Below, piece by piece: positions 15,760 to 28,834 of a stretch of 64,000 nucleotides of DNA. This DNA comes from Thiomicrorhabdus chilensis DSM 12352 (GTDB lineage: Bacteria; Pseudomonadota; Gammaproteobacteria; Thiomicrospirales; Thiomicrospiraceae): positions 1-64,000 of the forward strand of contig NZ_KI519609.1 of assembly GCF_000483485.1 (NCBI RefSeq), given 5' to 3'. The position numbers and the translations under genes are program-made. The notes under the pieces are model-generated. The model ran no database searches. It was not told where the DNA came from and saw only the letters and a list, made by a program, of their open reading frames with translations. How positions within the stretch are numbered: position 1 is the first letter of the stretch; each line of letters begins with the position of its first letter.

Positions 15760-15787
15760 AACTATTCAATTAATCAATTGAATAGTT
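15760..15787. promoter_or_regulatory. Perfect 12-bp inverted repeat, probable ArsR-type operator
   Basis: AACTATTCAATT (15760-15771) and AATTGAATAGTT (15776-15787) are exact reverse complements separated by AATC. The site lies between the divergent MFS gene and the ArsR-rhodanese gene, 33 bp before the latter's ATG. ArsR-family dimers bind such AT-rich dyads with ATTC/GAAT arms. Autoregulation and control of the transporter are inferred. Confidence 0.65.
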
Positions 15788-15819
15788 TAAAAATTCGATT
15801 CAAACGGGTTTATATTGTC

Positions 15820-16485
15820 ATGTCCTCAGTTAAGAAACAGTTATTCGAACAATTGGCGAACATCGCACAGGCTATCTCCTCCCCTCAACGGCTCGAATTG
15901 CTGGATTATCTGGCACAGGCTGAGCGCAGCGTCGAAGAACTCAGCCAGCTCACTGGCTTAAGTCTGGCCAATACCTCAAGGCACTTGCAGGTACTGAAAC
16001 AAAATGCTTTGGTAGAAGTCAGAAAAGACGGCAATAAACGCCTATATTTATTGGCAGGTAATGACGTTGTCAACCTGATTACCAGTCTCAGGAAAACCGC
16101 AGAAACTCATCTGGCTCAGGTTGAGTTTTTGCTGGACAGCTACCTGACCCAAAAAGACAAGCTCGACCCCATCAGTGCAGACCAACTCATGGAAATGAGC
16201 CAAAACGGCGAAGTCATCGTTGTGGACGTCCGACCCGAAAAGGAGTACCGGCAAGGTCACATTCCCCATGCCATCAACATCCCACCGGAAGACCTTGACC
16301 GGCGACTGAATGAACTCGATAACAGTAAAACCATTGTCGCTTACTGCCGCGGACCTTACTGCCTGTTTTCTTATGATGCGGTTGAAGCCCTCCAGAAAAA
16401 AGGCGTCACGGCGCACCGTTTGGTTGACGGTTTCCCTGAATGGAAAGCCGCCGGACGACCAACCACGGAAAAAAGTCAAAGCTGA
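15820..16485 (+). CDS. ArsR-family regulator fused to a rhodanese domain
   Basis: This is a 221-residue protein. Residues about 8-90 form an ArsR winged helix (SSPQRLELLDYL, then GLSLANTSRHLQVLKQNALV as recognition helix). Residues about 110-215 form a rhodanese domain (VVDVRPEKEYRQGHIPHAINIP) with active loop YCRGPYC. The fusion suggests a repressor that senses sulfane sulfur or another thiol-reactive ligand through the rhodanese Cys. ATG 15820 gives the normal ArsR N-terminus; the longer frame from 15778 would overlap the palindrome. No classical ArsR metal-binding CxC motif is seen. Confidence 0.85.
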   Translation: MSSVKKQLFEQLANIAQAISSPQRLELLDYLAQAERSVEELSQLTGLSLANTSRHLQVLKQNALVEVRKDGNKRLYLLAGNDVVNLITSLRKTAETHLAQVEFLLDSYLTQKDKLDPISADQLMEMSQNGEVIVVDVRPEKEYRQGHIPHAINIPPEDLDRRLNELDNSKTIVAYCRGPYCLFSYDAVEALQKKGVTAHRLVDGFPEWKAAGRPTTEKSQS

Positions 16486-16493
16486 CTGGCATA

Positions 16494-16510
16494 GACTCTA
16501 GTGTAGAGTC
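16494..16510 (+). terminator. Short perfect hairpin after the regulator gene
   Basis: GACTCTA (16494-16500) and TAGAGTC (16504-16510) form a 7-bp stem nine bases after the stop codon. There is no T-run, so termination strength is uncertain. Confidence 0.35.
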
Positions 16511-16643
16511 CTAAACTGTATCGTTTAGCCATCAAAGCAATTTATTAAGTGCGCTGAAATTCTGTTGGGAGAAGCGATTTGGCTCTGCTAATATAGCAAA
16601 TCGGCTCAATTAGCCGTTGCCTTTCACTTTTGAGGAAACAACA

Positions 16644-17546
16644 ATGAAAACAAAAACAAGATTCTCGATATTCACCCTGTTCTGGCTGCTGGCCTTTTCA
16701 GCCTTCAGCGCCTCTGCCGAAGAGGTCAAGGAGAACTTCAAAAACTTGACCGTTAACGCCAATCTGGTGATGGCGGAAGGTAAAACTTTGGCGGATGATG
16801 TGGTGCTACTGACCCACGGAACCACCACCCACAACGGTCGCGAAACCTACCGCAGCATCCAGAAGTTGCTGGCCGAGCAAGGCATCAGCTCTTTAGCACC
16901 GAACCTGAGCCTGAACGTCAACGACCGTCACGGCGAGGTGAATTGCGCACTGCCACAAACCCACAAACATGAAGACGCGTTGGAAGAGATGGGCTTCTGG
17001 CTGGATTGGTTGAAAGCCAAAGGCGCAACCTCAGTGACCCTAATGGGGCACTCGCGTGGCGGAAACCAAACAGCCTGGTTCAGCGTGGAACGTGACGAGC
17101 CGGTTATCAAAAAAGTGATTCTGATTGCCCCCCAAACCTGGAGCAAGGAAGCCGAACACAAAGACTATGCCAAAAAATACGACTTACCGTTGCAACCGAT
17201 TCTGAATTCGGCTGAAAAACTGGTCAAGGAAGGCAAAGGCGACACAATGCTCAAGGGCATCAACTTCATTTACTGCAAAGACACTTCAGCCACGGCCGAA
17301 GCCTTTGTGAGTTACTATAAAGACGAACCACGTATGGACACGCCGACCTTGTTGAAAAAAGCCCTCAAGCCCACTTTGGTGATCATGGGCTCCGCCGACA
17401 AGGTGGTGGCCGATTTGCCGAAGAAGATGGAAAACGTTGATAACGACTTGGTTCAGACCTACAGCATCGAAGATTCCGACCACTTCTTCCTGGACCTGTT
17501 CAGCGAAGAGCTGGTGGAAACCGCGGTGGAATTCATTCAGGAGTAA
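16644..17546 (+). CDS. Exported alpha/beta hydrolase
   Basis: This is a 300-residue protein with a signal peptide (about 1-26, LLAFSAFSASAEE). The nucleophile elbow is GHSRGG (Ser about 138), the oxyanion region LLTHGTT, and likely acid and base are Asp in MGSADKVV and His in DSDHFF, a complete catalytic triad order. The start is set by GAGG before ATG 16644. The substrate is unknown; periplasmic esterase or acyl-transfer activity is plausible. It stands alone and is followed by a strong terminator. Confidence 0.75.
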   Translation: MKTKTRFSIFTLFWLLAFSAFSASAEEVKENFKNLTVNANLVMAEGKTLADDVVLLTHGTTTHNGRETYRSIQKLLAEQGISSLAPNLSLNVNDRHGEVNCALPQTHKHEDALEEMGFWLDWLKAKGATSVTLMGHSRGGNQTAWFSVERDEPVIKKVILIAPQTWSKEAEHKDYAKKYDLPLQPILNSAEKLVKEGKGDTMLKGINFIYCKDTSATAEAFVSYYKDEPRMDTPTLLKKALKPTLVIMGSADKVVADLPKKMENVDNDLVQTYSIEDSDHFFLDLFSEELVETAVEFIQE

Positions 17547-17574
17547 TCTCCGACCAAGGATAACGCCTTAAACC

Positions 17575-17617
17575 AAAAAGCCCGGTTAAACACTTTTGTT
17601 AACCGGGCTTTTTTTAT
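17575..17617 (+). terminator. Rho-independent terminator
   Basis: AAAAAGCCCGGTTAA pairs with TTAACCGGGCTTTTT across a nine-base loop, ending in T7. The A-tract on the other side makes it bidirectional in principle. Confidence 0.9.
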
Positions 17618-17656
17618 TGGCTTTTAACACTCACACGGGTCAAAAGCCATCTAACC

Positions 17657-17684
17657 TGAAAATGAACAGGCCTGTTCATTTTCA
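17657..17684. repeat. Perfect 28-bp palindrome, longest form of the CAGGCCTG repeat
   Basis: The left half TGAAAATGAACAGG is the exact reverse complement of the right half. The core CAGGCCTG is at 17667-17674. It lies between two convergent genes, 40 bp after a terminator. Many other copies in the window match one or both halves, so this copy looks like the ideal consensus. Confidence 0.85.
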
Positions 17685-17706
17685 AAGACAAATCCGCAAA
17701 AATCGA

Positions 17707-18423
17707 TTACAGCTCCACGTCGTAATAGACCTTTTGCACGTCGTCCAAATCTTCCAAACTGTCCAAGAACTTCTCGAACATTTCCAGATCCTCACCCTCA
17801 ATCTGCTTGAACATTTGCGGAATAAACTGGATTTCGTCCACTTCAAACTCGATGCCGGGAAAGGCTTCGGTCAAAGCTTGACGGGTTTTAGCGTATTCGG
17901 TATTGGGAGCAAACACACTGACTTTTCCATCCTCGCACTCAATATCCGTGACATCCACATCGGCCATCATCAGGGCTTCCAGCACGGCTTCCTCGTCTTC
18001 ACCCGGAAACACAAAAATTGCACTGTGGTCGAACATATGCGCCACACTGCCTTGGGTTCCGATTTTGCACTTGGCTTTGGTGAAGCAGTGGCGCACGTCA
18101 CCGAAAGTACGGTTCGGGTTGTCAGTCAAACATTCCACCATCACCATCGAGTTGCCCGGGCCGTAACCTTCATAACGCGCCATGGCAAAGTCTTCGCCGC
18201 CGCCGCCCTTGGCCTTTTCAATCGCTTTGTCGATGACGTGAGCCGGAACCTGATCCTTTTTGGCGCGTTCAATCAAGCCCGACAAGGCCAGATTACTCTC
18301 CACCTCAACCCCGCCATTTTTGGCGCACACATAGATTTCACGGCTGTATTTACTGTAAACCTTTGCCTTTTGATCGGAAGTTTTAGCCATCGACTCTTTA
18401 CGGTTTTGATAGGCTCTACCCAT
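17707..18423 (-). CDS. YebC/PmpR-family regulator
   Basis: This is a 238-residue protein with the family features: [15 protein letters not shown] start, [12 protein letters not shown], an acidic helix-hairpin core and YEGYGPGN. The N-terminus, lacking the classical WANIKH segment, resembles the YeeN branch. Members are cytoplasmic DNA-binding or ribosome-associated proteins (bacterial relatives of the translational activator TACO1). GGAG precedes the ATG. It stands alone, convergent with the hydrolase. Confidence 0.88.
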
Positions 18424-18590
18424 TTCGCACTGCTCCGTTGAAATATCAATATAAAACCTAAATTTTACACCATTCGTTTTTGATTAGGGATTTAAACGGT
18501 TCCGAAATCCTGCAGACGGTGCTTAAAATGGTTGGAACATGGCATAAAAACCGTCAACGTCTCACAAAAAACTGGTTTTCTTTGCAAAAT

Positions 18591-18607
18591 AAACAGGCCT
18601 GTTCAAT
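18591..18607. repeat. CAGGCCTG repeat upstream of the RND operon
   Basis: AAACAGGCCTGTTCAAT with core 18594-18601. It sits in the 307-bp gene-free stretch 18424-18730 between the divergent YebC-like gene and the RND adaptor. Besides this repeat I see only AT-rich sequence with no clear -35/-10 pair; a TATACA at 18682 could be a -10 element. Confidence 0.7.
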
Positions 18608-18730
18608 TACTCAATCCTACAATTTTACCCCTCAAAACCCGCAAAAAAACAGGCTTTTAAAGTGCTTGCTTTCCACCCGTTTATACATAGAATGAATGTT
18701 CTACTTTCTAAGCAAAAGAGTTTCACTCAC

Positions 18731-19822
18731 ATGCGAAAAAATTGGATTCTCCCTTTTGTCTTGGTTGCCGCCTATTTACAGGCCAATCCAGCCTTTGCCA
18801 AGCCACCCGTTCAGGTGATTGCCTATGAGGCTTCCTTGACCTCTCAACCGCAAATGATTAAAGCGCTGGGACAGCTTCAGGCAAAAGAGTCCATCGACAT
18901 TTCCGCAAACGTCACCGACACCATCCACGCCATTCACTTCAGCGCCGGGCAAACCGTGCGCAAAAGCCAACTGTTACTGGAACTGAACAGTGCTGAAGAA
19001 CTGGCGGCGCTTGAGGAAGCCAAAGCCCTGGCAGAAGAGGCGAACCTGCAGTATCGACGTGTCAAGGAAGTGGTCGGGCGCAGTTCGGTCACACAATCGA
19101 TGGTCGATCAAAAATACCGCGAATGGCAGACCGCCATCGCCAAACGCAAGGTGATTGAAGCCCAAGTGGCCGACCGCCGAATCTACGCCCCCTTTGCCGG
19201 GCAGTTGGGTGTCTCGCCGTTCTCGGTGGGCGCCTTGGTGACTCCCGGCACCAAAATCGTCAGTCTGGACAACACCCAAGAGATGAAGCTCGATTTACTG
19301 ATTTCCACCCAACACCTGCGCTACCTGAAGATCGGACAAAACGTCACCTTAAGCACCCCGGCGTTTCCGAACAAAACCTTTGTCGGCACCATCAACGCCA
19401 TCTCGCCACGCTTGGAGCAGAATGTGCGCATGGCTCAGGTGCAAGCTCTGATTGGCAATCCGGCAGGCCTGCTCAAAGCCAACATGATGGTCGAAGCGCA
19501 AATCGACCTGCCAAACAAAACCCAGTTAAGTGTGCCCAATACCGCGGTATTGATGCTCGGGGACAAGGAGTTTGTTTACCGTTTGCATGCCAGCCAAGAT
19601 GGGAATCACCAAGCGGAAAAGGTTGAAATCCAAGGCGGTAAAATCGGCCCTTCCATGACTGAAATCCTGTCCGGTTTACAGGCTGGTGACCTGGTCGTCA
19701 GCCAAGGCGTCATGCGTGTCAACAGCAAAGTTCCAGTTGCCATCAAAGCGATGCAGAATCAGGCCTCGCAGGAGACACTGTTGCGCCCCGTTAAGCAATC
19801 GAATTCACAGCAGGCGCCTTAA
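18731..19822 (+). CDS. RND efflux periplasmic adaptor
   Basis: This is a 363-residue membrane-fusion protein. A signal peptide (about 1-23, ending ANPAFA) precedes a lipoyl half-motif (ESIDISANVTDTIHAIHFSAGQTV), a helical hairpin (about 85-130), the second lipoyl half (APFAGQLGVSPFSVGALVTPG) and a beta-barrel. There is no lipobox Cys. It bridges the inner-membrane pump to an outer-membrane channel; no TolC-like gene is nearby, so that part must be shared. ATG 18731 gives a normal signal peptide; earlier in-frame ATGs lack one. The gene ends 2 bp before the pump gene. Confidence 0.87.
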   Translation: MRKNWILPFVLVAAYLQANPAFAKPPVQVIAYEASLTSQPQMIKALGQLQAKESIDISANVTDTIHAIHFSAGQTVRKSQLLLELNSAEELAALEEAKALAEEANLQYRRVKEVVGRSSVTQSMVDQKYREWQTAIAKRKVIEAQVADRRIYAPFAGQLGVSPFSVGALVTPGTKIVSLDNTQEMKLDLLISTQHLRYLKIGQNVTLSTPAFPNKTFVGTINAISPRLEQNVRMAQVQALIGNPAGLLKANMMVEAQIDLPNKTQLSVPNTAVLMLGDKEFVYRLHASQDGNHQAEKVEIQGGKIGPSMTEILSGLQAGDLVVSQGVMRVNSKVPVAIKAMQNQASQETLLRPVKQSNSQQAP

Positions 19823-19824
19823 TC

Positions 19825-22800
19825 ATGTGGCTTTCAGACACTTCGGTTAAACGTCCGATCCTGGCGACTGTCGCCTCCTTGCTGTTACTTGCGTTTGGCT
19901 TGATGGCCTTTGACCGCATGAGCCTGCGCGAATACCCGAATGTGGACGCCCCCATTGTCACCATCGACACCGAATACCTAGGCGCTTCGGCCGCCGTGGT
20001 CGAATCACGTATCACCAAACTGATCGAAAACCGTATTTCCGGCATTGCGGGCATCCTCTATATCGAATCGACCTCCAGCGACGGCCGTTCACGCATTTCG
20101 GTGGAATTTTCCATTGAACGGGACATTGACGCCGCCGCCAACGACATCCGCGACCGCGTCTCGCGCGTGGCCGACAACCTGCCGGAACAGGCCACGCCAC
20201 CGGAAGTGGAGAAAGTGGACGGCGACGACAGCCCAATCATGTGGTTCAACCTCAACAGCGACCAGATGAGTGTCACCGAGCTGACCGACTACGCGGAACG
20301 CTATCTGGTAGACCGCTTTTCCACCATTGACGGTGTGGCGCGGGTACGCATCGGAGGCGGCCAGTCGTATGCCTTACGTATCTGGCTCAATCCGAGCCAA
20401 ATGGCGCTCCACGGCATCAGCGCTCAGGACATTGAACGCCAACTGCGTGCCTCCAATATCGAACTGCCAGTCGGCTCGGTACAGGGTGAACACATTCTTT
20501 TCAGCATGCAGGCCGACAAACCCCTGCAGAGCGTCGCCGACTTTGAAAACCTGGTGATCAAGCAAGGGGACCAGATTGGTCAGGTGACACTTGGCGAGGT
20601 GGCGGAGGTACGTCTGGGCGCGATTGAACGCCGCCGCTCTTTCCGCGGTAACGGCCAACCGATGGTGGGCATCGGCATCGTCAAGCAGTCCAACGCCAAT
20701 ACGCTAAGCGTGGCCAACCTGGCGCGCGAACGCCGCGAACAGGTCAACAAGACCTTGCCCGAAGGCCTCTATCTGGCTGAGAGTTACGACTCCTCGGTGT
20801 TTGTGGAGCAAGCGGTCAATGAAGTCTATAAAACCTTGTTCATCGCTTTGTCCCTGGTAGGCCTGGTGATGCTGGCTTTCCTCAAAAACTGGCGTGCCGC
20901 GCTGGTGCCGATCGTCACCTTACCGGTCTCGCTCATCGCCACCTTTGGTGTTCTCTGGGCCTTGGGCTTTTCCATTAACCTGCTCACTTTGTTAGCACTG
21001 GTGCTGGCCATCGGTCTGGTGGTGGACGATGCGATTGTGGTGCTGGAAAACACCCAGCGCCACCTTGATATGGGGTACGCCCCCAACGCCTCCGCGTATC
21101 TGGGCACGCGTCAGGTCGGCTTTGCGGTCATCGCCACCACCATGACCCTGATTGCGGTGTTTCTCCCCATCGCCTTTCTGGAGGGTCAGATCGGCCGGCT
21201 GTTTTCCGAATTTGCGATCACCCTTGCCGTGGCGGTCATTTTCTCCAGCTGGGTGGCGCTGACGCTCTCGCCGGCTTTGGCCTCCAAAATCCTCAAGCCG
21301 GTTCGCGCGCCGCGTCTTCGTGCCTCCAAATCCACTGAAACCGACCCTGACGATTCAGCCAAAGCTCGCCAGGCACCCAACCACCGCTTTAAAAAACTGC
21401 TGGTCAAAAATCTGCGCCACCCGTGGCTGATTGGTCTGACGTTTATTGGCATTGTCGGTGCCGCCGTACACTACGCCCAACAAGTCCCGCAGGAATATGT
21501 GCCCAAGGAAGACCGCGGCGCCTTTTTTGTGATGATCAAAGGGCCCGAAGGCGCCACCTTTGAATACATGCAGAGCTATATGGACGAGATTGAAACTCGC
21601 CTGATGCCACTGGTGGAAAACGGCGAAGCCAAACGCCTGCTGATCCGCACGCCGCGATCATTCGGCAACAGTGAAATCTTCAACAGCGGTTTTGTCATCG
21701 TAGTGCTCGAAGACTGGTCGCAACGCCGCAACGCTTATGCCATCATGGACGAGGTACGCAAACAACTCTCCGATCTCACTGGCGTCAAAGCCGTGCCGGT
21801 AATGCGCAACCCGATAGGCGGCCGCATTCAGAAACCGGTGCAGTTCGTGATCGGTGGGCCAAGCTATGAACAGCTTGAGACATGGCAGGCGCAGATGGAC
21901 AAGGCGATCAACGAAAACAATCCCGGCCTGACCGGACTGGACTGGGATTACGAGCCGAACAAACCACAGCTGAGTCTGACGGTGGACTACGCCAAAGCCA
22001 AGGCCCTTGGGGTATCACACGAAAACCTGACCGAAACCCTGCAGATCCTGCTCGGCAGTAAACGCGTCACCACCTATGAATACGAAGGTGAAGAGTATGA
22101 TGTGATGATTAAGGCCGATCACAAGTGGTTCCGTTCACCCCAGGATTTGGAACACATTTATTTGCGCTCCGAAACCAGCGGACAAATGATTCCTCTGGCG
22201 GACATCACCGAGGTGACGACTTCTGGCGTCGCCTCCAGTCTCAACCGTTACAACCGGGTACGCTCCATGACGCTGTCGGCACAGCTCGACGATACCCTAT
22301 CGCTGGGTGAGGCACTGAATTATCTTAACCAGCTGACCCGCAGCACTCTGCCAGCGGAGGCGGTCATTGACTATAAAGGCCAATCGCGCGACTTCCAAAA
22401 CGCCTCCAGTTCCTTTATTTTTGTGTTTCTGTTTGGTGTGGTGGTGATCTTTCTGGTTCTGGGCGCACAGTTCGAGAGTTTTGTGCATCCGCTGGTGATT
22501 CTGTTCACCGTGCCTCTGGCGCTGGCAGGTGGTCTTTTTTCACTGCTGGCCTATAATATGTCGCTCAATATCTACAGCCAGATTGCACTGGTATTGCTGC
22601 TCGGCCTGGCCACCAAAAACGGCATACTGATTGTGGAGTTCACTAACCAACTTCGCGACCGCGGACTGCCGCTTTACCGCGCTCTCGTCAGCGCGACCCA
22701 GCTTCGCCTGCGACCGATTGTGATGACGGCGGTCACCACCATTGCCGGAACCATTCCGCTGATTTTCTCCAGCGGTGCCGGGGCGGAAACACGTTATATT

Positions 22801-22959
22801 CTCGGCGTGATACTCTTTTGGGGCGTGGCGTTTTCAACGCTGTTGAGCCTGTTTGTGATTCCGGCCGTCTATGCTCTGCTGGCCAAACACACCGGCTCAC
22901 CTTTGACGGACACACGCAAATTGGAAGCCGCTCTTAAACAGCCTCCCACCAAATCGTAA
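19825..22959 (+). CDS. RND multidrug-type efflux pump (HAE1-like)
   Basis: This is a 1044-residue inner-membrane transporter of AcrB/MdtB size and layout: a first helix (about 10-28), a large periplasmic loop, helices 2-6, a second helix set and a second loop from about 555. The proton-relay Asp pair is in helix 4 (GLVVDDAIVVLEN), and the second-half motif GLATKNGILIVEF carries the conserved Lys. Pumps of this branch export drugs, detergents or dyes; the substrate cannot be read. It is an operon with the adaptor. Confidence 0.9.
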   Translation: MWLSDTSVKRPILATVASLLLLAFGLMAFDRMSLREYPNVDAPIVTIDTEYLGASAAVVESRITKLIENRISGIAGILYIESTSSDGRSRISVEFSIERDIDAAANDIRDRVSRVADNLPEQATPPEVEKVDGDDSPIMWFNLNSDQMSVTELTDYAERYLVDRFSTIDGVARVRIGGGQSYALRIWLNPSQMALHGISAQDIERQLRASNIELPVGSVQGEHILFSMQADKPLQSVADFENLVIKQGDQIGQVTLGEVAEVRLGAIERRRSFRGNGQPMVGIGIVKQSNANTLSVANLARERREQVNKTLPEGLYLAESYDSSVFVEQAVNEVYKTLFIALSLVGLVMLAFLKNWRAALVPIVTLPVSLIATFGVLWALGFSINLLTLLALVLAIGLVVDDAIVVLENTQRHLDMGYAPNASAYLGTRQVGFAVIATTMTLIAVFLPIAFLEGQIGRLFSEFAITLAVAVIFSSWVALTLSPALASKILKPVRAPRLRASKSTETDPDDSAKARQAPNHRFKKLLVKNLRHPWLIGLTFIGIVGAAVHYAQQVPQEYVPKEDRGAFFVMIKGPEGATFEYMQSYMDEIETRLMPLVENGEAKRLLIRTPRSFGNSEIFNSGFVIVVLEDWSQRRNAYAIMDEVRKQLSDLTGVKAVPVMRNPIGGRIQKPVQFVIGGPSYEQLETWQAQMDKAINENNPGLTGLDWDYEPNKPQLSLTVDYAKAKALGVSHENLTETLQILLGSKRVTTYEYEGEEYDVMIKADHKWFRSPQDLEHIYLRSETSGQMIPLADITEVTTSGVASSLNRYNRVRSMTLSAQLDDTLSLGEALNYLNQLTRSTLPAEAVIDYKGQSRDFQNASSSFIFVFLFGVVVIFLVLGAQFESFVHPLVILFTVPLALAGGLFSLLAYNMSLNIYSQIALVLLLGLATKNGILIVEFTNQLRDRGLPLYRALVSATQLRLRPIVMTAVTTIAGTIPLIFSSGAGAETRYILGVILFWGVAFSTLLSLFVIPAVYALLAKHTGSPLTDTRKLEAALKQPPTKS

Positions 22960-23118
22960 CGGCTTGGCATACGCGCAAGACTCACCAAACGAGTCCATTG
23001 AACATTTACATTGACCCGTCCAGCCACTATGATGCTAAGCATGGTGGCAACATCCAAATGCAGTCAGCAAACGAGCCTCGGCAGACAAAATCAAAATAAA
23101 TAACCGCCACCTCAAAAC

Positions 23119-25527
23119 ATGGACAGCAAACACATGATCACAGTACTCGGTGCTTCCGGCAGCCTGGATAAAAACAAGGAGTGTATCTCCTTTCTAGTCA
23201 ATCAAACCATTCTGATTGATGCCGGCAACGTGATGCGAGCACTTGGCCAGGACAGCCTGAAGATTGAACATGTTTTTTTGACCCATGCCCATTTTGATCA
23301 TATAACCGACCTGCCTTTTCTGATTGAAACCCATTTCGAAAAACGCCAAAAAACCCTTAAAATCTATGGCCTGAAAGCCACCTTGGAAGTGCTCGAAGCA
23401 CACTTGTTCAACGGTGTCATCTGGCCCCGTTTTCAAGAGATCGACCACCCAAAGCTAGGGCACCCTATGCTGGAATTTGTGGAAATCGAATGCGGTCACA
23501 CTCTGCAAATCGATGATATTGAAATCACGCCGATCAGCGCCAACCACAGCATTGAAGCCTGCGGTTTCATCGTCAAACAAGACAACCAGGGAGTCTTGAT
23601 TTCGGGCGATACCTTCGACAACCCGCAATTGATCGATCACCTCAATCAGGATTCCGAAATTCAAACCCTATTGATCGACGTCTCCTTTCCGTCCTCCATG
23701 GACAAGTTGGCGCAACAGAGCAAACACTTAACGCCGACCCGTTTGATGGGCATGCTTGAGCAACTGAAACACCCGGTCAGAGTCTACCCCTATCACCTTA
23801 AACCGGCTTATGAAACCGAGATTCTGGCGGAGCTGTCTGGATCGGATTTTGCACCCTGGATCAGCAAAGTACTTGAGGCCGGGGAGCAACTGGGCGCACA
23901 AACCTCGGTTCTGTCCATGGAACAAATGACTTCGGCGCCGGACTATTCCAGTGAAGAAAAACTGGCTTCTTTGCTCAAAATCGCCCAAGCCTTGTCGGCG
24001 GAAACCCATCTTGAAAATCTGCTGGAAATGATACTGGAACAAGCTATGGATTTTTCCAATGCGGATGCCGGCACACTCTATCAGCTTTCGCCGAATCGCC
24101 AGGAACTGACCTTTACGGTGGTGCAGAACAGAAGCCTGAACATCAAGATGGGAGGCACCCAAACACCCATTCTTTGGGACAACCTTCCTCTCTACCTGGA
24201 GAATGGCGAACCCAATCTGAAAATGGTCGCCGCCCTTTGTGCACTCGACAAACAGGTCATCAACATCCCGGATGTCTATGCGGCCGATGCGTTCGACTTT
24301 TCAGGTACACGCAAATTTGATGAAAAAACCGGCTATCGCTCGGTTTCCATGCTGGTCATTCCGCTATTGGATCGTAATCAGGAATTGCTTGGTATCCTGC
24401 AACTCATCAATAAGCAGGACCCGGTGGGCCAGGCCATCGCTTTCAGCGCGCAAGACCAGCAAAGCGCTTTGGCGCTGGCCTCGCAGGCGGCGATTTCACT
24501 TAACAACGCCTTGTTGATCCAGCAACTGGAAGAGTTATTTGAATCGGTCCTCTCCACGATTTCCAAGGCGCTGGATGAAAAGTGTTCCTTTTCGGGCGCA
24601 CATGTACGCCAGGTGGCCGAGCTGTCAGAGTTGATTGCCAACGGCATTGACCAGGATCAGAGCGTTTATCAGGATGTCCACTACTCCGCGGAAGAACTGC
24701 ATACCATCAAGGTCGCGGCGCTTCTGCACGATGTTGGCAAGATCACCACGCCTGAATTCATCATGCAAAAGGCCACCAAGCTCGAACGCGTGACCGACCG
24801 GATTGAGACCATTGGAGAACGCATCGAGATACTCAAACGCGATGCCGAAATCCGCTTTTTGAAGGCTCAGCTGTCTGCCTCGAAAAGCGAAGGGGACACA
24901 TTTGAAGCCTTGCAAAAAACCTATCAGGATGAGATCGTCGCACTCGATGAAATCTATGACTTCCTCAAACAGAGTAATACCGGAAACGACTATTTGAGCG
25001 ACGCTGAAATCGCCGGAATTGAGGAATTGGCCAAGCGGACTTATCAAAAAAACGGTGAAACCGTACCCTTTTTAACGCCTGATGAAGTCCTTAACCTGTG
25101 TATTCGTGCAGGCACCCTTAACCAATCCGAACGCGCCAAAATCATGGATCATGCACGCGTATCCTTGGAAATATTGCAAAGCCTGCCGTTTCCGCGCAAG
25201 TACAATCGCATCGTCGACATCGCTGCCAACCATCACGAAAAGCTCGACGGTTCGGGCTATCCGCGCGGCCTTAAAGCCGATCAACTGGCCTTGGAAGACC
25301 GTATTTTGATTTTGGCGGATCTCTATGAGGCGCTCTCTTCACAGGACAGACCCTACAAAGAACCGCACCCGCTCTCCAAAATCACTCAAATCCTCTCTTC
25401 CATGGCGAATGACGGCTTGATCGATAAAACGCTGGTTAAATTCTTTTTTGAAAGCGGCCTGTATAAACAGTTCAATAAACGTTTAAAATCCAGCCAAATC
25501 GATGAAATCAAGCTCACCATCAATTGA
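23119..25527 (+). CDS. Metallo-beta-lactamase / GAF / HD-GYP fusion, putative dual cyclic-nucleotide phosphodiesterase
   Basis: This is an 802-residue soluble protein. Residues 1 to about 275 form a metallo-hydrolase with HAHFDH (56-61), a second-site His (SANHSIEACG) and SGDTFDNP, most like class II cAMP phosphodiesterases or RNase Z relatives. Residues about 285-470 form a GAF sensor. Residues about 480-800 form an HD-GYP domain with HD at about 536-537 (LLHDVGK) and HHEKLDGSGYP from about 704. HD and HHE are about 165 residues apart, longer than usual, owing to a charged helical insert. HD-GYP domains hydrolyse cyclic di-GMP. The combination suggests one protein acting on, or sensing, two nucleotide signals. 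The start has no good ribosome binding site. Confidence 0.82.
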   Translation: MDSKHMITVLGASGSLDKNKECISFLVNQTILIDAGNVMRALGQDSLKIEHVFLTHAHFDHITDLPFLIETHFEKRQKTLKIYGLKATLEVLEAHLFNGVIWPRFQEIDHPKLGHPMLEFVEIECGHTLQIDDIEITPISANHSIEACGFIVKQDNQGVLISGDTFDNPQLIDHLNQDSEIQTLLIDVSFPSSMDKLAQQSKHLTPTRLMGMLEQLKHPVRVYPYHLKPAYETEILAELSGSDFAPWISKVLEAGEQLGAQTSVLSMEQMTSAPDYSSEEKLASLLKIAQALSAETHLENLLEMILEQAMDFSNADAGTLYQLSPNRQELTFTVVQNRSLNIKMGGTQTPILWDNLPLYLENGEPNLKMVAALCALDKQVINIPDVYAADAFDFSGTRKFDEKTGYRSVSMLVIPLLDRNQELLGILQLINKQDPVGQAIAFSAQDQQSALALASQAAISLNNALLIQQLEELFESVLSTISKALDEKCSFSGAHVRQVAELSELIANGIDQDQSVYQDVHYSAEELHTIKVAALLHDVGKITTPEFIMQKATKLERVTDRIETIGERIEILKRDAEIRFLKAQLSASKSEGDTFEALQKTYQDEIVALDEIYDFLKQSNTGNDYLSDAEIAGIEELAKRTYQKNGETVPFLTPDEVLNLCIRAGTLNQSERAKIMDHARVSLEILQSLPFPRKYNRIVDIAANHHEKLDGSGYPRGLKADQLALEDRILILADLYEALSSQDRPYKEPHPLSKITQILSSMANDGLIDKTLVKFFFESGLYKQFNKRLKSSQIDEIKLTIN

Positions 25528-25529
25528 AA

Positions 25530-25544
25530 CATGCCGTCGGCATG
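25530..25544. repeat. 15-bp palindrome after the HD-GYP gene
   Basis: CATGCCG T CGGCATG begins 2 bp after the stop codon. It could be a weak hairpin terminator or an operator for the copper genes that follow. Confidence 0.3.
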
Positions 25545-25554
25545 GACAATTCAA

Positions 25555-25584
25555 TTGACAAGCCACTCTCAAAATCGCTATGCT
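25555..25584 (+). promoter_or_regulatory. Sigma-70 promoter candidate for the copper genes
   Basis: TTGACA (25555-25560) and TATGCT (25579-25584) are separated by 18 bp, about 45 bp upstream of the first copper-region ATG. No CueR-type dyad is evident in the spacer. Confidence 0.5.
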
Positions 25585-25626
25585 GGAAGCTCATCGTAAT
25601 AACAGACGGTTGTGTGTGGACGTTCA

Positions 25627-26061
25627 ATGAACTTATACAAACGCGCTTTACTCATATTTCTAGCATTATCGCTCATTATTCGGCCCGTCTTTGCCGAAGG
25701 TCTGATGCTGCACAGCGCGCCCAACATGCAGACCGATTCGTTGCCGCACACTTCCAACCATAGCCAAATAAGCAGCAGCCAGGTTATGGACGTCAGTCTG
25801 GCCATGCAACACGCTCTGCACCATCCCGACAAGACGGCACCCATGAACATGGATATGGATATGGATTGTTGTGACCACCAAACCGGTAGCTGCTCTGATT
25901 GCAGCGATGGCAGTTGTGTGGTCATTTCGGCCGCACCTCTGATCGCCAACGCACAATCCACCACCTTGATTGTTAACCCCATTTCACACATCCAAGCCAG
26001 CGCGGTCGTAGCCGTGTTCAAACGTGCCATTCCGCCCGAATTGCGTCCCCCCTCCGCTTAA
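25627..26061 (+). CDS. Small exported Met/His/Cys-rich protein, probably copper-related
   Basis: This is a 144-residue protein with a signal peptide (about 1-23, LLIFLALSLIIRPVFA). The mature part has a metal-ligand cluster (PMNMDMDMDCCDHQTG followed by CSDCSDGSC) typical of periplasmic copper-binding proteins. It is directly upstream of copA on the same strand, and copper binding or delivery is inferred from composition and context. I recognise no exact family; a DUF2946-like relationship is possible. A hairpin follows the gene. Confidence 0.6.
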   Translation: MNLYKRALLIFLALSLIIRPVFAEGLMLHSAPNMQTDSLPHTSNHSQISSSQVMDVSLAMQHALHHPDKTAPMNMDMDMDCCDHQTGSCSDCSDGSCVVISAAPLIANAQSTTLIVNPISHIQASAVVAVFKRAIPPELRPPSA

Positions 26062-26089
26062 CTCTTAGTTTCTGATACAGATCCCACAT

Positions 26090-26122
26090 GCACCGCCCTG
26101 AATGCGGTGCCTGATTGTTTTT
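26090..26122 (+). terminator. Hairpin between the small copper protein and copA
   Basis: GCACCGC (26090-26096) pairs with GCGGTGC (26104-26110), followed by TGATTGTTTTT. It could act as a partial terminator or attenuator that lowers copA transcription relative to the first gene. Confidence 0.5.
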
Positions 26123-26141
26123 AGAATTTAGGAGTTTCACA

Positions 26142-28094
26142 ATGAAAACTTTAACACCCTCTGTCAACGCGCCTGCGCGTGTGACCCGTCGTCGCTTTAT
26201 CGAAGGCGCTGTCATCGGCTCGGCTATGGTCGGAGTCGGCTTCAAGCCATCTGAATTGCTGGCAAGCACTGCGCAAACCGTCAAACCGATGGCGCATCCC
26301 AACATCCTTACCGGCACCGAATTCCACCTGGAAATCGGCCGTGCGGTCGTCAACTTCACCGGCACACCGCAAATTGCCACCACGGTAAACGGCATGCTTC
26401 CGAGCCCGACGCTTGTGTGGCGCGAAGGCGACACGGTCACCCTGCATGTCACCAACACCTTGGATGAGGACAGCTCAATCCACTGGCACGGGATTATTCT
26501 CCCCTTTGAAATGGACGGCGTCCCCGGGCTCACCTTTGACGGCATCCAACCCGGTGAAACCTTTACCTACACCTTCACCGTCCAACAGCATGGCACCTAC
26601 TGGTATCACAGCCATTCCGGCTTTCAGGAACAGACAGGCCTGTATGGCGCGATTGTGATTGTGCCCAAAGAAGCCGACCCTTACGACACCCAGCGGGACT
26701 ATGTGATTCAGCTCTCCGACTGGACCGATGAAGACCCGAACGAGGTCTTTGCCAACCTCAAGAAAATGCCGGATTACTACAATTTCAAACAGCGTACCCT
26801 GGGCGACTTTTTCAGTGAAGTACAGGAAAAAGGCTTTAAACAGGCGTTTAATGACCGCAAGATGTGGAACGAAATGTCGATGATGGATCGCGATCTGTCA
26901 GACGTCACCGGCCATACCTACACCTTTTTGATGAACGGCTCCAATCCCGCAACCCATTGGCGTGGCCTGTTCAAAAAAGGCGAACGCGTACGCCTGCGTT
27001 TCATCAACAGTTCGGCCATGACCTTTTTCGACGTGCGCATACCCGGTTTAAAAATGACGGTAATCGCCTCGGACGGCAATTTGGTGCAATCGGTGGAAGT
27101 CGACGAGTTCCGCATCGGTGTTGCCGAAACCTATGATGTATTGGTAGAGCCCGAGGATGAACCGGCCTACTGCGTGTTTGCACAGGCACTGGATCGTTCC
27201 GGCTTTGCGGTAGGCAGCCTGACCACCGATGCCAAGCTCACCGCCGAGGTGCCTGAAATGGATCCACTGCCGATTCTAACCCACACCGATATGGCGATGG
27301 GTGGGCATCACAGCGGGCATGATATGTCGGGCATGGAGCATACACAGCACACCATGCCCGAATCCTCCGGGGAAATGGATCACAGCATGCATCAAAACAT
27401 GGACCATTCACGCCATGCCATGCCCCAGAGCAATACAGAACCGCTTCACCAAATGGAAGCGGACATGGATCACTCCAAACATGCCATGCATCAGGAGATG
27501 AACCACGAGCAACCGCAATCGCACTCAAAACACGCTATGGAAGCTTTTTTCGACGCCAATCAGGTCGTCGCTGACTGGCCGGTTGAGCAAGCCGAGATTC
27601 AATGGGGACCTCAGACCAATATGCGTGCCGAAAATGCGCAGTACCGTCTCAGTGATCCCGGGGTGGGGCTCCGCAATAACGGACGCAAAGTGTTGACCTA
27701 TGCCGACTTGCGCAATCTCCACTCAACCCGACACGATCCGCAACCGGATCGCGAAATCATCCTTAACCTCACCGGCAACATGGAGCGCTACCTATGGTCG
27801 ATCGACGGCGTTCCTTATTCCAAAGCCGATCCGCTGCATTTTAAATACGGCGAACGCATCCGCATTACCTTCGTCAACCACACCATGATGAACCACCCCA
27901 TGCATCTGCATGGTCTGTGGAGCGATCTGGAAACCGGCGACATGAATCACCTGCCGCGCAAGCACACTGTGATCGTACAGCCCGGTGCACGCATCAGTTA
28001 CCGGGTCACGGTCGATGCCAAAGGCGTATGGGCGTATCACTGCCACATGCTGTTCCATATGGCCGGCATGTTCCGCAAAGTGATTGTGGCGTAA
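26142..28094 (+). CDS. copA: Copper resistance multicopper oxidase CopA
   Basis: This is a 650-residue protein starting behind TTTAGGAG. A twin-arginine signal (TRRRFIEGAVIG, about 10-21) sends it folded to the periplasm. Copper motifs are SIHWHGI, WYHSHSG, HPMHLHGLW and the type 1 site HCHMLFHMAGM. Between about residues 386 and 466 is a Met/His-rich insert with repeated MDHS and MH units that binds Cu(I) in this family. It oxidises or sequesters periplasmic copper. It forms an operon with copB (20-bp gap). Length fits the plasmid-type CopA/PcoA family. Confidence 0.93.
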   Translation: MKTLTPSVNAPARVTRRRFIEGAVIGSAMVGVGFKPSELLASTAQTVKPMAHPNILTGTEFHLEIGRAVVNFTGTPQIATTVNGMLPSPTLVWREGDTVTLHVTNTLDEDSSIHWHGIILPFEMDGVPGLTFDGIQPGETFTYTFTVQQHGTYWYHSHSGFQEQTGLYGAIVIVPKEADPYDTQRDYVIQLSDWTDEDPNEVFANLKKMPDYYNFKQRTLGDFFSEVQEKGFKQAFNDRKMWNEMSMMDRDLSDVTGHTYTFLMNGSNPATHWRGLFKKGERVRLRFINSSAMTFFDVRIPGLKMTVIASDGNLVQSVEVDEFRIGVAETYDVLVEPEDEPAYCVFAQALDRSGFAVGSLTTDAKLTAEVPEMDPLPILTHTDMAMGGHHSGHDMSGMEHTQHTMPESSGEMDHSMHQNMDHSRHAMPQSNTEPLHQMEADMDHSKHAMHQEMNHEQPQSHSKHAMEAFFDANQVVADWPVEQAEIQWGPQTNMRAENAQYRLSDPGVGLRNNGRKVLTYADLRNLHSTRHDPQPDREIILNLTGNMERYLWSIDGVPYSKADPLHFKYGERIRITFVNHTMMNHPMHLHGLWSDLETGDMNHLPRKHTVIVQPGARISYRVTVDAKGVWAYHCHMLFHMAGMFRKVIVA

Positions 28095-28114
28095 TTCAAG
28101 GTAAGGAGAACACA

Positions 28115-28834
28115 ATGAAAACACAAATATTATCCGTTTCAAAACGAGCAGGCCTGTCCATTTTGACCGCCATGTCGACTCTGACTTTATGCGTCCCAAG
28201 TGTGCAAGCGGGCATGATGGATGATCCGGTCATCAGCAAGTTCACCATGGACAAACTCGAAGTCAGCGACCAGGAAGACAACCCCGTTATCTGGGAGACC
28301 GACTTCTGGATCATGAAAGGGCTGCAGCGTCTGGTCATCAAATCGGAAGGCGAATCGGTCAACGGCGAAAGCGAAAGCCACAACCTGCTGCTTTACGGCC
28401 AGGGAATCGCCCCCTATTGGGATCTGCAATTGGGATTGGGCTACGACACCCATGAAGAGGATTCACACAACTGGGGCGTCATCGGACTGTCGGGCATGGC
28501 GCCCTACTTCTTTGAAACCGATGCCTATGCTCTGGTGGACGGCGATGGCACCCTGGGATTGCGCTTAAGCACGGAATACGAGGCGCTGATTACGCAACGA
28601 TTGATTCTGTCTCCGGAAGCCGAACTCAAAGCCTATTCGGGGGAGATTCCAGAACTTAAGATCGGTTCCGGACTCTCGTCTTTAGGGATTGGCCTACGTC
28701 TGCGCTATGAATTCACGCGCAAATTCGCCCCCTATGTCGGAATCGAATGGCACCAAACCTTCGGCGATACTGCCGATTACCATGAAGAGGACCAAGAAAC
28801 CTCCCTGGTGGCGGGTCTGCGTTTCTGGTTTTAA
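28115..28834 (+). CDS. copB: Outer-membrane copper resistance protein CopB
   Basis: This is a 239-residue protein with a signal peptide (about 1-31). The mature part is a beta-barrel with alternating aromatic strands: DFWIMKGLQRLVIKSEGE, YDTHEEDSHNWG, GIGLRLRYEF, and a C-terminal Phe (GLRFWF) typical of outer-membrane proteins. This is the CopB/PcoB layout, though without the long Met-rich N-terminus of the Pseudomonas protein. ATG 28115 follows AAGGAG. A CAGGCCTG repeat (28149-28156) lies within the signal peptide codons. Confidence 0.88.
   Translation: MKTQILSVSKRAGLSILTAMSTLTLCVPSVQAGMMDDPVISKFTMDKLEVSDQEDNPVIWETDFWIMKGLQRLVIKSEGESVNGESESHNLLLYGQGIAPYWDLQLGLGYDTHEEDSHNWGVIGLSGMAPYFFETDAYALVDGDGTLGLRLSTEYEALITQRLILSPEAELKAYSGEIPELKIGSGLSSLGIGLRLRYEFTRKFAPYVGIEWHQTFGDTADYHEEDQETSLVAGLRFWF

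Follow-up and report, generated by a model that had tools for sequence, protein, structure and literature searches.

Linkage of a genus-restricted fusion, a predicted phosphodiesterase with GAF and HD-GYP domains, to cyclase or DUF3095 genes in Thiomicrorhabdus

The DNA analysed here (the window) comprises 64,000 nucleotides of Thiomicrorhabdus chilensis DSM 12352 (contig NZ_KI519609.1, positions 1 to 64,000) and carries, at 23119-25527, a gene whose product combines a metallo-beta-lactamase-fold (MBL) domain of the phosphodiesterase type, a GAF sensor and an HD-GYP domain. This gene is a genus-restricted fusion of two widespread proteins, the metal ligands of both catalytic domains are intact by alignment, and the fusion is linked to genes for a class III nucleotidyl cyclase or for a protein of the DUF3095 family. 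We think it reasonably probable that the fusion is a cyclic AMP (cAMP)-gated, self-limiting phosphodiesterase of cyclic di-GMP (c-di-GMP) that degrades the very molecule activating it. That molecule, cAMP or another cyclic mononucleotide (cNMP), would be made by a nucleotidyl cyclase, which would be a CHASE2 class III enzyme in certain relatives and is probably the DUF3095 protein in the window's genome. Binding of the mononucleotide to the GAF domain would switch on the HD-GYP domain. The activated HD-GYP domain would hydrolyse c-di-GMP, and the N-terminal class II phosphodiesterase of the same chain would hydrolyse the mononucleotide, thereby setting a threshold and ending the response. We infer both enzyme activities, the ligand of the GAF domain, the sign of the regulation and the cyclase role of DUF3095. 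If the mechanism is right, a single polypeptide would answer a short-lived rise in cAMP by lowering c-di-GMP and would also wipe out that rise, acting as a compact converter between two second messengers.

A first-pass annotation had described a metallo-hydrolase, a GAF domain and an HD-GYP domain in one gene, with the GAF domain between the two catalytic ones. This is confirmed by a single open reading frame (ORF) of 802 codons in which all domains exceed the Pfam cut-offs. Lactamase_B_2 (PF12706) matches residues 30-226 with 63.5 bits (curated cut-off 27) and PDEase_II (PF02112) residues 35-144 with 44.7 bits (cut-off 23.7); membership of the class II phosphodiesterases was judged by these curated cut-offs. 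GAF matches residues 298-461 (46.8 bits), and the best stretches of HD and HD_5 lie at 494-554 (62.2 bits) and 653-772 (111.9 bits), all above their curated cut-offs. Translation possibly starts at 23134 (residue 6), since 5 of 9 aligned relatives begin precisely there. The features of the gene, with the evidence for each, are the following.

23119..25527, + strand: whole gene, 802 aa, PDEase_II-type MBL, GAF and HD-GYP (one ORF, Pfam)
23119..23853, + strand: N-terminal MBL domain, residues 1-245, predicted cyclic-nucleotide phosphodiesterase (PDEase_II, Lactamase_B_2, AlphaFold model)
23284..23301, + strand: HAHFDH metal motif, residues 56-61 (alignment)
23545, 23608 and 23794, + strand: further MBL ligands H143, D164 and H226, plus conserved H203 at 23725 (alignment)
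23959..24528, + strand: GAF domain, residues 281-470 (Pfam, PDB matches)
24409..24459, + strand: NKFDE-like motif N431 K432 F442 D446 Q447, final E replaced by Q (alignment)
24529..25524, + strand: HD-GYP domain, residues 471-802 (Pfam, PDB profile match)
24727..24732, + strand: HD dyad H537-D538 (alignment)
24784..25101, + strand: HD-GYP insertion, about residues 556-661, in an HdiD-like place and of about HdiD-like size (alignment)
25231..25272, + strand: HHEKLDGSGYPRGL motif, residues 705-718 (alignment)

The earlier statement that both metal centres look intact also holds by alignment. The MBL domain has its seven ligands plus H203, and the HD-GYP domain has the HD dyad, the HHExxDGxGYP motif (HHEKLDGSGYP, residues 705-715) and the distal Asp, i.e., H495, H537, D538, H678, H705, H706 and D734. 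When we looked for missing metal ligands, the only departure was a Phe at the equivalent of the third-metal Glu of PmGH. The MBL ligands are kept in 10/10 fusions and 5/5 unfused MBL relatives aligned, and the HD-GYP residues in 12/12 fusions. Eight other intact fusions, 50-62% identical to the window copy, align with it from end to end; across these nine proteins H56, H58, D60, H61, H143, D164, H203 and H226 of the MBL domain are invariant, as are the seven HD-GYP residues.

For the N-terminal domain, motifs and sequence matches point to the class II phosphodiesterases. A typical motif, HXHLDH, and an atypical one, [T/S]HXHXDH, have been defined for this class (PMC9293780). The window protein, with F in place of L in HAHFDH, does not match the typical motif; its THAHFDH matches the atypical one, and the remaining ligands H143, D164 and H226 are present. 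Atypical members include YhfI and Rv1339, which are cyclic-nucleotide phosphodiesterases (PMC9117128, PMC9293780). Yeast PDE1, a typical member, is the best PDB sequence match of the N-terminal region (E 3.9e-7), before RNase Z (1.5e-5). We also built an AlphaFold (AF2) model of residues 1-260 from four sequences (the window copy, L046, L047 and L048), with a predicted local distance difference test score (pLDDT) of 81.8 and a predicted template modelling score (pTM) of 0.85. Among solved chains it comes nearest to a Bacillus ELAC homologue (Z 26.0, root-mean-square deviation 2.5, 235 residues aligned) and YhfI (25.9, 2.4, 232), followed by E. coli ZipD, an RNase Z (25.5, 2.9, 239), and yeast PDE1 (24.8, 2.9, 252). 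Identity as RNase Z was rejected, although the folds are nearly tied, because the match to NCBIfam TIGR02651 reaches 57.5 bits against a cut-off of 292.95 and covers residues 7-156 only. PDE1, YhfI, Rv1339 and Apyc1 have the fold and the metal motif in common with the window protein, which differs from these class II enzymes in being fused to GAF-HD-GYP. The N-terminal domain is probably a class II-type cAMP phosphodiesterase.

The GAF domain resembles those that bind cyclic nucleotides. Its PDB matches are, in 16 of 17 cases, CyaB2 or cyclic-nucleotide phosphodiesterases (one of them a PDE5-PDE6 chimera); the remaining one is PmGH. CyaB2 is a cAMP-binding cyclase with a GAF domain, for which five cAMP-contact residues are listed (PMC4411481 / PMC11977230). 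In the alignment of the PDB match, T293 and D356 are identical in the window protein (T319 and D401), and I308 is replaced conservatively by V334. The NKFDE motif marks most characterised cNMP-binding GAF domains (PMC4411481, PMC11977230); its N, K, F and D are present here, with Q in place of the final E. Among 12 fused copies, K is found in 11 (one has R), D in 11 (one has E) and the final E in 2, and the K that is so common in the fusions is kept in just 2/21 unfused relatives. The domain probably senses cAMP.

The closest GAF-HD-GYP protein of known structure is PmGH (4mcw), which matches over the same two domains with E 3.1e-30 and lacks both the N-terminal enzyme and the insert of about 100 residues. 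Its third-metal Glu aligns with Phe491 of the window protein; V-cGAP3 (5z7c) has Tyr at that position. With its core residues in place, the HD-GYP domain is probably a c-di-GMP phosphodiesterase. The first-pass annotation had also noted an unusual insert of about 100 residues between HD and HHE. The insert is there relative to PmGH, some 106 residues long (about 556-661), and it is not unusual: each of the 33 aligned GAF-HD-GYP proteins, whether fused (12/12) or unfused (21/21), has one of 93-108 residues. It also fits HdiD, a domain that received its name in January 2026 on the basis of Leptospira LIC_11189 (121 aa, K416-D536) and was suggested to play a role close to the c-di-GMP site (PMC12943098). 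LIC_11189 has the architecture REC-GAF-HD-GYP, so that the preceding GAF domain is shared, as are the position and rough size of the insert (the likeness is one of place and size only), whereas its N-terminal domain is REC and that of the window protein a phosphodiesterase. We therefore discarded the insert as a novelty. The broader suggestion that one protein could link two nucleotide second messengers stands at the level of sequence, where a class II-type phosphodiesterase, a cyclic-nucleotide-type GAF domain and an HD-GYP core share one chain and a class III cyclase adjoining in three relatives fits cAMP.

The distribution of the fusion was studied in 32 genomes of the genus (the window's genome being G000) and in 369 genomes of the class, comprising two genus members (G000 and G044) and 367 others. 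In the class sample two candidates were scored per genome, and the results refer to the matches listed. There are 12 single-ORF copies in 11 genomes of the genus (G000, G003, G004, G005, G008, G009, G015, G020, G022, G040 with two copies, and G044). The fusion is therefore not a chance event. A TGA reported for G022 does not interrupt its copy, whose open frame has 793 aa. Including damaged copies, the fusion is recognisable in 14/32 genus genomes. In G019 a frameshift disrupts the fusion, and DUF3095 is broken as well. G042 has an intact DUF3095 and a fusion split into two overlapping frames (514 and 301 aa), and in G021 only a remnant with four stops is left; these broken loci lie at L126:9310-10466, L032:8533-11006, L122:8039-10448 and L033. 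Outside the genus, a full-length fusion occurs in 0/367 class genomes among the matches listed, which included only G000 and G044. Each half is common there on its own, again among the matches listed: GAF-HD-GYP at about 263-795 of the model and the MBL domain at about 4-258. A match over 4-434 in G353 consists of two adjacent genes. The simplest reading is that the fusion is a genus-level join of two widespread proteins. Separate MBL (260 aa) and GAF-HD-GYP (526 aa) genes, adjoining and divergent, also occur in G008; their contig is 6.9 kb long and the contamination of the assembly is put at 8%, so they may be foreign to the organism. An origin from phages or plasmids was rejected (0/432 matching plasmid records cover 80% of the query, and 16 viral stretches with the DUF3095 pattern encode no relative). 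A role as a defence gene was rejected too, with PADLOC matching only the HD part of the fusion to Cas3 models (best 29 bits) and giving no match for DUF3095.

The partner genes, whose borders we took from the first possible start codon, are the new element of this system. The fusions of G009 and G022 are each preceded on the same strand, with gaps of 44 and 33 nt, by a CHASE2-Guanylate_cyc gene (730 aa; assigned by Pfam in G009), and the two cyclases are 67% identical. Of the two fusions in G040, one overlaps a DUF3095 gene and the other lies 39 nt downstream of a cyclase that has 68% identity to the G009 enzyme. The cAMP reading fits because a class III cyclase adjoins the fusion in these three relatives, cAMP being the commonest product of such enzymes. 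In G003, G004, G020, G044 and G040, a DUF3095 gene (385-394 aa) lies 3' of the fusion in the same orientation, with a 4-nt overlap between the two genes in G004 and G040. DUF3095 occurs in 11/32 genus genomes, all of them among the 14 with the fusion, and in none of the 18 without it (Fisher p = 2.8e-6, or 1.2e-4 with only genomes at least 90% complete (14 and 11), in both cases ignoring shared ancestry). DUF3095 is missing from three fusion genomes: G009 and G022, which have their own CHASE2 cyclase, and G021 with its remnant. In the window's genome the DUF3095 gene (384 aa) is remote from the fusion, on the minus strand at C1:1564413-1565525 between chemoreceptor and P-type ATPase genes. That genome also has 46 GGDEF matches, so c-di-GMP signalling is present, and six cNMP-binding domains. 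Downstream of the fusion, the second gene encodes a GGDEF-EAL protein in G009, G015, G022 and G042.

In the tree of fusions, the five DUF3095-adjacent copies cluster with support 99/99. A second group (90/93) contains the window copy, the three CHASE2-adjacent copies, G008 and G015, and G005 stands apart. In the tree of DUF3095, the genus proteins form one clade (100/100) within which the five fusion-adjacent ones fall together (81/90), in the same internal order as the fusions. The simplest history is that the fusion and DUF3095 were paired early and that the CHASE2 cyclase later replaced DUF3095 in G009 and G022. Such a replacement would be expected if DUF3095 supplied the same product.

Is DUF3095 then a cyclase? 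The Asp of its ADVxxST motif (ADVRDST in the window's genome) and that of FGGDGA are invariant in 49/49 aligned members. We compared them with class III domains by a criterion chosen after viewing both families, namely a pair of metal Asp, one within D[IV]xxST and the other in a GD about 44 residues further on. The spacing is 43 in the 37/49 DUF3095 members caught by a regular expression (the rest were mostly missed by the expression) and 44 in 32/50 class III domains. A stricter pattern, likewise picked after viewing both families, finds 26/50 class III domains, 17/49 listed DUF3095 members and 22/4,430 other frames; by eye those 22 are further DUF3095 copies, leaving 0/4,408. With hhalign the two families align in register over both Asp and the next strand, at P 0.02 against 0.07-0.46 for five other families. 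Several results speak against the cyclase reading. The hhalign probabilities are low (5.4% and 2.3%, at P 0.0072 and 0.02), an earlier and shallower comparison gave 0.1% in a different register, a meaningless match, and a HMMER class III profile hidden Markov model scores DUF3095 no higher than shuffled sequences. Pfam searches of 11 members gave a significant match to DUF3095 only and none to PF00211, with scattered weak families in one or two (best E 0.0066), and a PDB profile search with DUF3095 revealed no homology to class III cyclases. With PDB profiles, Pfam and HMMER against shuffles all negative, we do not treat this homology as a shown fact. DUF3095 as a cyclase is a serious lead, not a result.

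DUF3095 is present in 53/398 genomes of a phylum sample. The 27 loci outside the genus that we scanned with home-made profiles (L110-L116 and L228-L247, several cut by contig ends) include two with a class III cyclase (L234, L237), five with a GGDEF/EAL or HD-type gene and 20 with none, which speaks against a general rule. In L234 and L237, from two genomes of one family (f219), a class III cyclase and a Lactamase_B_2 gene lacking a PDEase_II match lie no more than about 6 kb from DUF3095. Rhizobium phaseoli has three annotated cyclases in the 17 kb around DUF3095, and Sinorhizobium mexicanum has none annotated. We found no paper naming DUF3095 in the literature searched. That DUF3095 is an unrecognised family of nucleotidyl cyclases, making a cyclic mononucleotide that the fusion senses and destroys, in a two-protein circuit whose cyclase would be DUF3095 in some lineages and a CHASE2 class III enzyme in others, is a tentative proposal to which we give somewhat less than even chances. 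Its link to the fusion brings a test of DUF3095 function within reach and is the part most worth testing. If DUF3095 is a cyclase, synthesis, sensing, removal and c-di-GMP output would all lie in one two-protein circuit.

Several observations weigh against a cAMP-gated, self-limiting enzyme. The NKFDE motif is incomplete, with Q for E in the window and E in 2/12 fusions, and two CyaB2 contacts are changed (R291 to A317 and N359 to T404). The near-tied structural match does not separate cNMP phosphodiesterases (YhfI 25.9, PDE1 24.8) from RNase Z (25.5). Class III cyclases (PF00211) match in 6/25 genus genomes searched and not in the window's; class I (PF12633) has no match over the cut-off in 11 fusion genomes, the window's included, although G004 shows one below it, and both searches left class IV and rarer cyclases uncovered. 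Hence, cAMP itself is unproven in the window's genome. Finally, some lineages do without the fusion, which is interrupted in G019 and G042 and reduced to a remnant in G021. The lack of class III and class I matches in the window's genome, the presence of DUF3095 and the two changed contacts would all suit a circuit of the same design in which the MBL domain cleaves, and the GAF domain senses, another mononucleotide (cGMP, cCMP, cUMP or a new DUF3095 product). Base preference does vary among class II relatives, Apyc1 being broad and YhfI preferring cAMP and cGMP (PMC9117128). We nevertheless regard this variant as unlikely, as close relatives of the window copy pair with CHASE2 class III cyclases (G009, G022 and one of the two copies of G040, G040b).

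The N-terminal domain could also act on the output side, hydrolysing pGpG (or another short linear HD-GYP product) to GMP, so that the fusion would be a complete c-di-GMP degrader with no role for cAMP. MBL-fold phosphodiesterases and RNases share site and fold, and successive enzymes are commonly fused. This is improbable in our view, since the domain passes PDEase_II and falls far below the RNase Z cut-off, class III cyclases are the partner genes at three loci, and a separate MBL relative (L047) lies with cyclase and cNMP-binding genes. Least probable of all, and only a slim chance, is that the domain is a degenerate or structural passenger on an ordinary GAF-HD-GYP protein with no signalling link. 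The split or decayed copies in G019, G021 and G042 would agree with a passenger, whereas the invariance of all MBL ligands in the window copy and the eight intact fusions 50-62% identical to it would be unexpected for a dead domain.

Several known systems resemble the proposed cAMP-gated enzyme. Tlr0485 of Thermosynechococcus is a cAMP-activated GAF-HD-GYP phosphodiesterase of c-di-GMP (PMC8846402); likened by description and not by sequence, it shares domains, input and output with the proposed role of the fusion and is described, in the available text, without a cAMP-degrading domain. Bd1971 of Bdellovibrio (a cNMP-binding domain with EAL) and Lcd1 of Leptospira (GAF-GGDEF) place c-di-GMP enzymes under cAMP control (PMC6717892, PMC8846402), coupling cAMP sensing to c-di-GMP turnover in one protein as proposed here. 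They differ in their catalytic domains, Bd1971 also in its sensor, and neither is described in those texts as destroying its own ligand. In the titles and abstract openings searched, we found no paper naming a cAMP-type phosphodiesterase fused to GAF-HD-GYP. The kinds of enzyme, the sensor and the insert are thus already known, and the link to a cyclase or DUF3095 partner gene is new.

The neighbours of unfused relatives also speak against a general rule. Among 21 unfused GAF-HD-GYP loci, four have a CHASE2 cyclase within about 10 kb and one (G008:C27) an adjacent MBL gene; a class III cyclase is found at 2 of 10 unfused PDEase-type MBL loci. Among the matches listed by a scan of genome contigs is an Archangiaceae contig on which a separate MBL gene sits with genes for a class III cyclase and for a cNMP-binding protein, in favour of the cAMP reading. 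At L046:9995-13222 and L166:8918-12094, a separate MBL phosphodiesterase gene is followed, after 24 and 21 nt, by a gene for a GAF-MshEN-T2SSE ATPase. Because MshEN binds c-di-GMP, this phosphodiesterase family is here associated with GAF and c-di-GMP once more, in a different arrangement. G003, G005, G011, G018, G021 and G024, genomes with and without the fusion, encode a further, larger HD-GYP protein (frames of 795-1078 aa) that shares 39-46% identity with the C-terminal part of the window protein.

Other genes around the fusions were also recorded. Between the fusion and the GGDEF-EAL gene lies a conserved gene of 295-298 aa (L024:8905-9801, L025:12412-13299, L027:7606-8502), with a 293-aa gene likewise placed in L122 (G042); the L024 copy has no Pfam match above the cut-off and one weak PADLOC match (mad2, 18 bits). 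In the window, a sigma-70-like site precedes the gene at 23005-23033, but the number of sites in the promoter scan (3) is not above that in shuffles (3.1). A 281-aa open frame at 17596-18441, without a Pfam match at E 1, is overlapped on the opposite strand by a 238-aa frame at 17707-18423. Across 15778-28834 the fusion gene stands between genes for an RND pump and those for a multicopper oxidase and CopB, with an ArsR-rhodanese gene further upstream, so that this copy appears to lie in a metal-resistance block with no cyclase adjoining. The fusion of G005 is also flanked by homologues of the pump genes, the oxidase and CopB.

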